This document shows, in pieces, positions 1-50,022 of a DNA stretch of 64,000 bases. The DNA is taken from contig NZ_RDQE01000001.1 in the NCBI RefSeq assembly GCF_003697845.1, positions 248,001-312,000 of the forward strand, read 5' to 3'. Within the stretch, counting starts at the first letter, position 1; the number at the start of each line of letters is the position of its first letter. The notes beneath the pieces were generated by a model. It searched no databases. It was not told the DNA's origin and saw nothing but the letters and a program-made list of their open reading frames with translations. The DNA is from Halobellus captivus (lineage in GTDB: Archaea; Halobacteriota; Halobacteria; Halobacteriales; Haloferacaceae). A program made the position numbers and the translations under genes.

Positions 1-122
1 GTCGGTGAACCGCTCGCTCGCGCTCGCGGATGCTCACTACAGGCGAAGCCACGAACGATCCGGATTGCGGTGGCGTCGCCGGCGCTTCGCGCCGGCTTCA
101 AGCGAGAGCTCTGCTCTCACCC
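1..122. other. Noncoding, hairpin-rich left edge
   Basis: No credible gene is visible. The stretch holds two local hairpins: GCCGGCGC (78-85) pairing with GCGCCGGC (89-96) across a 3-base loop, and GAGAG (104-108) pairing with CTCTC (114-118). These run directly into the dispersed repeat that starts near 123. Open frames here have low-complexity Arg/Ala/Pro translations and occur on both strands, which is typical of GC-rich noncoding DNA. Confidence 0.5.
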
Positions 123-200
123 TGCGCCTGCGAGTGCCCGGGAGGGCACGAGCAGCCCGCGAGGCTGGGGAGGCGTGAGGTGCGGTGTGGGGTGGGACTC
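123..200 (+). repeat. Dispersed intergenic repeat, copy A (short form)
   Basis: Short form of the repeat also found near 1364, 10630 and 49893. It begins with GCCTGCGAG, followed by a hairpin with arms GTGCCC/GGGCAC (134-149) and then GAGC. The large second hairpin present in the other copies is missing. It ends with the conserved G-rich core (161-183), which contains GGGGAGGCGTGAGGTGC. The G-rich strand is the + strand, pointing toward the gene at 652. Runs of G downstream (GTGTGGGGTGGG) could favour a two-tetrad quadruplex. Function unknown. Confidence 0.75.
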
Positions 201-207
201 AAAGGGG

Positions 208-303
208 CAGTCGCGAGGAGCGCGCAGGCGACGTAAGCACCACAGGGAGCGAGCAACGCGAGCGACCGAGGAGCACAACGAGCGTGCGCGCTCCTCGCGA
301 CTG
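208..303 (+). repeat. Long inverted repeat, 18-bp perfect arms
   Basis: The left arm (208-225) reads CAGTCGCGAGGAGCGCGC and the right arm (286-303) is its exact reverse complement. They are separated by 60 bases of GC-rich sequence with no reading frame I trust. It follows directly on repeat copy A. Copy C also has a GCAGTC motif at the same relative place, so this may be an extended 3' part of the same element. An RNA from this region would fold into a strong stem. Confidence 0.7.
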
Positions 304-603
304 GGGCTTTGGGCGTGTTCTTCGCAGTCGACTTCACCGCGCCACCAACGAGGTCTCCTCGATCACACGATCCGTACTACAAGCACGCTCGATCTACCGG
401 ATGACCTTGGATAGTACGAGGTGAAACCAACGGGTCGTGAAGCGTTCTATGAGACTCTCCCGATCGCCTTCGTCCGAACATGATCGATCAGTATATATCA
501 TAATACATATTATTCCGTATCCAGTACCATGGTATCTCTTACATGGTGTTATCGTGTGTTTCAGACCATCTAAATGAATGAGATACGTTACCTCTTATCA
601 AAA
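304..603. other. AT-rich noncoding region with inverted repeats
   Basis: Composition drops sharply in AT content terms from about 480 onward: this is an AT-rich island with several TATA-like tracts (for example around 491-515). GTATCTC at 532-538 is the reverse complement of GAGATAC at 580-586. No tRNA or gene is recognisable. It probably carries regulatory DNA for the gene at 652, but this is inference. Confidence 0.4.
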
Positions 604-1363: not shown

Positions 1364-1497
1364 CCGCACCTCACGCCTCCCCAACCTCGGCCGGCGGCGG
1401 CCGCGGGACCGCACCGCGTCGCGGCCGCCGCCGACCTCCCTCGCGCGGGCCGGCTCGCGCCCTGGCGGGCGCTCACGGGCACGCGCCACCGCACCTA
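1364..1497 (-). repeat. Dispersed intergenic repeat, copy B (long form)
   Basis: Read on the minus strand it contains, in order, GTGAG, a hairpin with arms GCGCCC/GGGCGC (1457-1472), a GAGC motif, a second long GC hairpin built from CGGCGGCCGCG and its complement, and the conserved core at 1366-1388 (one base differs from the other copies, T for C after GAGG). Hairpin 1 has a different sequence from copies A and D but the same pairing. The core points toward the zinc-ribbon gene ending at 1039. Confidence 0.8.
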
Positions 1498-10609: not shown

Positions 10610-10629
10610 CGTTCGTCGATCCTGCGGCG

Positions 10630-10765
10630 GCGCGCGCCTGCGAGCGGCCGCCACGGCGGCCGCGAGCCAGCACCGTGCGAGGGAGGTCGGCGGCGGCCGC
10701 CGAACCGAACGGCGGCCGCCGCCGGCCGAGGCTGGGGAGGCGTGAGGTGCGGGGCGGGGTGGAGC
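10630..10765 (+). repeat. Dispersed intergenic repeat, copy C (long form)
   Basis: Same order of parts as copies B and D. GCCTGCGAG is followed by hairpin 1, here with arms GCGGCCGCC/GGCGGCCGC (10644-10663), then CGAG, then hairpin 2 with arms CGGCGGCCGCCG on both sides of an AACCGAA loop. The conserved core GAGGCTGGGG... lies at 10728-10750, followed by GGGGCGGGGTGG. Pairing is conserved although both stems differ in sequence from B. The core points toward the gene at 10894. Confidence 0.8.
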
Positions 10766-49892: not shown

Positions 49893-50022
49893 CACAGCAC
49901 CTCACGCCTCCCCAGCCTCGGCCGGCGGCAGCCGCGGGACCGCACCGCATCGCGGCCGCCGCCGACCTCCCTCGCGCGGTCCGCTCGTGCCCTCCCGGGC
50001 ACTCGCAGGCACGCGCCACGCA
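49893..50022 (-). repeat. Dispersed intergenic repeat, copy D (long form)
   Basis: On the minus strand: GCCTGCGAG, hairpin 1 with arms GTGCCC/GGGCAC (49987-50002, same as copy A), then the GCGGACC... segment and GAGGTCGG, hairpin 2 with GGCGGCCGCG arms, and the conserved core at 49897-49919. It sits between divergent sufS and the aminotransferase gene at 50111. The core points toward sufS. Confidence 0.8.

Follow-up and report, generated by a model that had tools for sequence, protein, structure and literature searches.

The ERIC and BOX/RUP repeats of bacteria are dispersed, intergenic, polar, palindromic, and modular, occur in many truncated copies, and encode no protein. The archaeal element described here shares all of these traits, but is set apart by features, rather than by sequence comparison, in having one ornate multi-helix fold of ~280 nt, conserved tandem G•A motifs, and stems that covary across both paralogues and orthologues. 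It resembles REP/REPIN-RAYT systems in being an intergenic folded repeat present in tens to hundreds of copies per genome; REPs, however, are 20–40 bp long, whereas our element has four helical domains in ~260–290 nt, its stems differ wholesale between copies, and it shows no Y1/RAYT linkage. Like the MITEs of haloarchaeal insertion sequences, it is short, non-coding, and gained and lost at orthologous sites, but terminal inverted repeats are not clear, and we saw neither a duplicated target nor a parent element. A large multi-helix fold and a conserved unpaired core are also features of the large ornate bacterial RNAs OLE, ROOL, and GOLLD; to our knowledge none of these is scattered over a genome in as many as 195 copies, as the element is, and the element has no Rfam match. 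ORF-less group II introns and SINE-like retroelements likewise conserve an RNA fold among mobile copies, but we rejected retrotransposition or a group II intron derivation, as reverse transcriptase was found in 0 of 20 genomes (including ones with 142–195 copies) and no Rfam intron matched.

The stretch of DNA analyzed (the window; 64 kb, C1:248001-312000 of a home genome of 3.59 Mb in 37 contigs) holds four copies of the element, A to D (Table 1). The 17-mer core GGGGAGGCGTGAGGTGC is exact in all four, at 167 (+), 1366 (-), 10734 (+), and 49897 (-), against a chance expectation of 0.40 matches when up to three mismatches are allowed, confirming the original prediction of four dispersed copies with an invariant G-rich core. 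The arms of the first hairpin were as described there; the boundaries given for copy A were too narrow, as this copy includes the whole of P4 and ends, after a 3' tail, at ~320. Copy A has no P3, CGCGAGG being joined directly to CGAGGCTGGGG. Copy B, at what we call site B, is flanked by an ABC-transporter ATPase gene on one side and a zinc-ribbon gene on the other, and copy D is followed by a remnant of the 3' tail, CTTCGGCGGTGTTC, reaching to ~49860.

Table 1. Element copies in the window, with the parts of copy A, and copies elsewhere whose P4 interior is flipped
Feature	Coordinates	Strand	Description
Copy A	67..320	+	Full-length element without P3; from sequence and comparison with genome copies
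Copy A, head	67-75	+	GCGGTGGCG
Copy A, two extra hairpins	75-120	+	Before P2
Copy A, P2 hairpin	127..155	+	CTGC-GA-GTGCCC-GGGA-GGGCAC-GA-GCAG, tandem G-A mismatches
Copy A, invariant core	161..183	+	GAGGCTGGGGAGGCGTGAGGTGC
Copy A, P4 domain	200..311	+	Complete; CAAAG-GGG-CAGTCGCGAGGAGCGCG...CTCCTCGCGACTG-GGG-CTTTG
Copy B	1364..1494	-	P1, P2, P3, and core; P4 missing
Copy C	10624..10760	+	P1, P2, P3, and core; P4 shortened; downstream of hisB
Copy D	49897..50021	-	P1, P2, P3, and core; P4 deleted
Flipped P4 interior	L176:18934-19046		
Flipped P4 interior	L176:10931-11044		
Flipped P4 interior	L203:1544-1654		

At its full ~260–290 nt, the element comprises P1, P2, P3, the invariant core GAGGNTGGGGAGGNNTGAGG, and a long P4, in the order GCGGTGGCG, P1 (CGCG/CGCG), P2, AGGGA, P3, core, G-rich linker, and P4. 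P2 is a hairpin broken by a tandem GA opposite GA, P3 is a hairpin whose sequence is very variable between copies, and the linker between the core and P4 contains GTGCGG repeats. P4, typically 111–116 nt long, has the form CAAAG-GGG-CAGYCGCGAGG...CCTCGCGRCTG-GGG-CTTTG and encloses a conserved motif, GTAAGSACC...GAGGASCGCAGCGAG, together with a second GA/GA hairpin. Some copies carry extra hairpins at fixed places, and elements of other genera follow the same plan with GAAAG/CTTTC rather than CAAAG/CTTTG as the closing helix of P4 (closing pair G-C, not C-G). The P1–P3 structure was drawn by hand and then tested for covariation; an RNAalifold model on a MAFFT alignment, in which the 5' arm paired with the core, was rejected as no compensation was seen there.

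The 3' part of the element and the DNA that follows it show variants. Home-genome copies L012, L016, L021, L045, L060, and L070 have a different 3' module, GCGGATTCACAGATCGACTG...ACGCCAGCAGACGCCGAGCAC...CCTCCAGGTTTTTCGAGG, in place of P4, with GATGAAAAAGGTGGAT coming next in some. Many elements (L104, L113, L123 [site B, hisA flanks], and copies in the closed relative G176) are followed by tandem units of ~50 bp, TTTATAAGCGAGCGGCTGGGGCTTTGGAGGTGTTCACCG...GATC, each with a TATA-like box and an SD-like GGAGGTG. After hisA in L123, an AT-rich stretch with a gene for a small putative membrane protein lies between the element tail and the next TTTATAA unit.

The core occurs at 74 places in the home genome with up to two mismatches, compared with 2 for a reversed control; a covariance model based on 49 of the copies likewise finds 74. 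Extending the search to relatives, we found the family in Halorubrum and other haloarchaea: among 242 genomes of the class, all nearly complete, 53 carry the core pattern (control counts 0–2), including all 30 Halorubrum genomes, with 15–195 copies each. Outside Halorubrum the distribution is patchy, with 1–142 copies in scattered species of other genera and a range from 0 to 142 within one genus; the covariance model adds weak, more diverged matches (with rough E-values) in two pattern-negative genomes. Phage records gave no match to the element, and plasmid records gave five weak ones. No Rfam 15 family matched in the window, and Rfam matches up to E = 5 at loci of two relatives that carry full-length copies all lay outside the elements, far below gathering scores. 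Elements can also be paired and cores repeated in tandem: a tail-to-tail pair in Halorussus and a head-to-head pair in Halobaculum form long intergenic inverted repeats (L185 and L183), and at G185:C3:123163-123262, in another genus, six core copies stand in tandem at a 16-base spacing. The original prediction held that such sequences are often misannotated as proteins; we found one instance, Halar_0093 of archaeon DL31, a hypothetical-protein annotation across part of an element (P4; L182:1087-1620).

The fold is retained across this diversity. In 106 distinct aligned copies, 91.3% of P1–P3 pairs are standard, and 289 cells are double-changed compared with 86±7 after shuffling (0 of 500 shuffles as high), a signal that is lost when the partner is slid by one to three columns. 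For P4 the figures are 92.2% standard pairs and 248 double changes against 66±7 (0/500); its structure comes from a prediction on that same alignment, and alignment A3 was fitted to the structure, so that the percentages are biased upward, with the slide controls showing how far the covariation signal exceeds this bias. An alignment-free test of P3 gave a score of 5.65 for true left and right ends and 2.25 for arms swapped between copies (maximum of 200 shuffles, 2.82). The covarying hairpins proposed around an invariant core are thus strongly supported in a larger alignment, with significant double changes far above the shuffled controls, and selection on the fold across copies, the structural part of our account, is close to proven.

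Palindromes can also arise without function, perfected by template switching and by gene conversion between arms or copies, with no selection on the fold. Recombination of the palindrome type does occur: whole P3 cassettes differ by species at the same site, and in 3 of 50 aligned copies the P4 interior is the reverse complement of that of other copies, as if flipped between the arms (Table 1). Such correction would, however, turn the tandem mismatch of P2 into GA/TC, yet 102 of 108 rows retain GA/GA, and of the six that do not, four are Watson-Crick (GA/TC, TC/GA, or AA/TT). It would also erase G•T and A•C equally, yet on the plus strand G•T outnumbers A•C by 72 to 12 in P1 and P2 (p = 1e-11) and by 52 to 15 in P4, outside six columns with alignment slippage. 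We therefore regard functionless palindromes as very improbable. As a double-stranded palindrome, or one perfected by template switching, would give neither the retained GA/GA nor the excess of G•T, it is the G-rich, plus strand that folds, as a single strand. The original prediction left the choice between an RNA and a DNA structure; the folding strand likely acts as RNA, judging from these mismatches, and single-stranded DNA is still a candidate because G•T is the milder mismatch in DNA as well. The small RNA also suggested there stays a candidate.

None of 186 copies tested lies inside a predicted gene (gene calls from codon usage), in agreement with the intergenic location first noted in the window. 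The core was also said to point toward the next gene on the same strand, and a cis-acting leader or riboswitch for that gene was proposed. The four window copies are compatible with this orientation, copy A provided that the 89-aa ORF at 652 is a real gene, and site B precedes the zinc-ribbon gene in many species. Genome-wide, the next gene is co-stranded for only 26 of 66 copies in the home genome and 69 of 179 over three sets (p = 0.003, in the direction opposite to a leader), and no gene family recurs downstream. Copies are enriched in convergent gaps (62/176, compared with 27/324 background gaps; OR 6.0, p = 3e-13) and depleted in divergent ones. Because of this orientation and placement we reject a general leader role, and consider a cis-acting leader the least probable of the explanations weighed. 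The preference for convergent gaps suggests tolerance where promoters are absent. A replication-polar DNA motif was likewise rejected: among the 191 copies listed on the closed G176 chromosome, the strands are interleaved, with 103 runs compared with 96 expected and a weak arc excess (p = 0.03).

Comparison of orthologous sites shows that copies are gained and lost. At least 12 other Halorubrum species have a copy at site B; H. aquaticum, H. cibi, and H. persicum have none there, and H. salsamenti has one that is partly deleted. Five species carry a copy before hisA, where about a dozen have none, and Halolamina salifodinae has an insertion at a site that is empty in H. rubra and H. pelagica. 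Plain compensatory change in P3 separates some species at site B (GTCAGTCGCC/GGCGACTGAC vs. GTCGGTCGCC/GGCGACCGAC), and in others a different cassette has taken its place, so that copies seem to exchange parts. Mobility is seen here as gain and loss, not as a mechanism. Alignments of filled and empty sites give ends that are not base-exact, and in some clades a TTTATAA-type motif flanks the element on either side; by eye, the element ends show a weak GCGGTG...CACCGC similarity, and the neighborhoods of copies gave no parent element. The description of the repeat as REP/MITE-like is supported for dispersal and for gain and loss; terminal inverted repeats, target duplication, and a transposase were not established.

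In our best reading, to which we give about an even chance, each copy is a unit of a non-autonomous mobile element that encodes a folded RNA of ~260–290 nt. Transcription would depend on a TATA-like box at a constant distance in most Halorubrum clades, and the folded RNA would be recognized in trans by a protein; such recognition would let copies spread and force each of them to retain the fold, while stem sequences drift or swap between copies. Copies would persist mainly where they are least harmful, between the 3' ends of convergent genes. The TATA-like box lies 9–21 bases before GGTGGCG in 33 of 46 copies in G176 and in 28 of 53 copies in other relatives, and in G176 a similar TTTATAA stands ~40 bases after the 3' end of P4 in 40 of 54 copies. 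It could serve as a promoter, mark a preferred site, or belong to the element itself.

Several points weaken this reading. The home genome has a TATA-like box at -21 to -9 in 0 of 57 copies, and elsewhere the spacing of the box would, by usual archaeal distances, start the RNA near P2 and lose the 5' strand of P1. No mobilizing enzyme was found: the neighbors of copies include no recurrent protein family and no partner gene in cis, and Y1 domains number 0 in G185, which has 142 copies, as well as in G170 and G018, and 1 in G000. Finally, at least 12 species share one site, which would equally suit a stable host RNA.

The last point bears on the possibility that the copies form a gene family for a regulatory or structural non-coding RNA from which the host cell benefits, with mobility secondary. 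Retention of the fold with compensatory changes at that orthologous site, the RNA-like tolerance of G•T, and the fixed TATA-like box in several clades all fit such an RNA. Copy numbers that vary more than tenfold within Halorubrum and from none to 142 in another genus do not, nor do the many empty sites and the many truncated copies, of which B, C, and D are examples from the window, and we consider a host RNA unlikely, although it is the strongest of the alternatives. In another alternative, RNA is uninvolved and a transposase or recombinase recognizes, in trans, the folded single strand of a mobile DNA element, as in REP/RAYT or attC. Such an element would also be dispersed, intergenic, gained, and lost, and would be consistent with the inverted P4 interiors and with the paired elements, head to head in Halobaculum and tail to tail in Halorussus. 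Against it stand the excess of G•T over A•C, which is more RNA-like even if G•T is milder in DNA too, the copy-bearing genomes that lack Y1 transposases, and the absence of a partner gene near copies; a RAYT-type mover was rejected, as Y1 transposases do not track copy number. We judge a folded-DNA element to be slightly less likely than a host RNA.

Returning to the mobile element with a folded RNA, a bolder form would place it in an undescribed class among archaeal mobile elements, in essence an ornate RNA gene that stands by itself. It would spread through recognition of its own folded RNA, encoding no protein and using no reverse transcriptase, reach nearly 200 copies, and exchange whole hairpin cassettes between copies while keeping the fold. 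We advance this tentatively, at somewhat less than an even chance. If most copies are full length, nearly 200 copies would make up as much as ~2% of a genome.

A large, structured, RNA-like family that reaches 195 copies in a genome of a common archaeal genus has no Rfam entry and is absent from the literature we searched, where no paper treats this repeat and none contains the core sequence. Annotators could cease naming such stretches hypothetical proteins. The family poses the question of its mover and, for structure work, supplies thousands of natural variants that covary; if transcribed, its members would rank with the most repeated non-coding RNA genes of any prokaryote.
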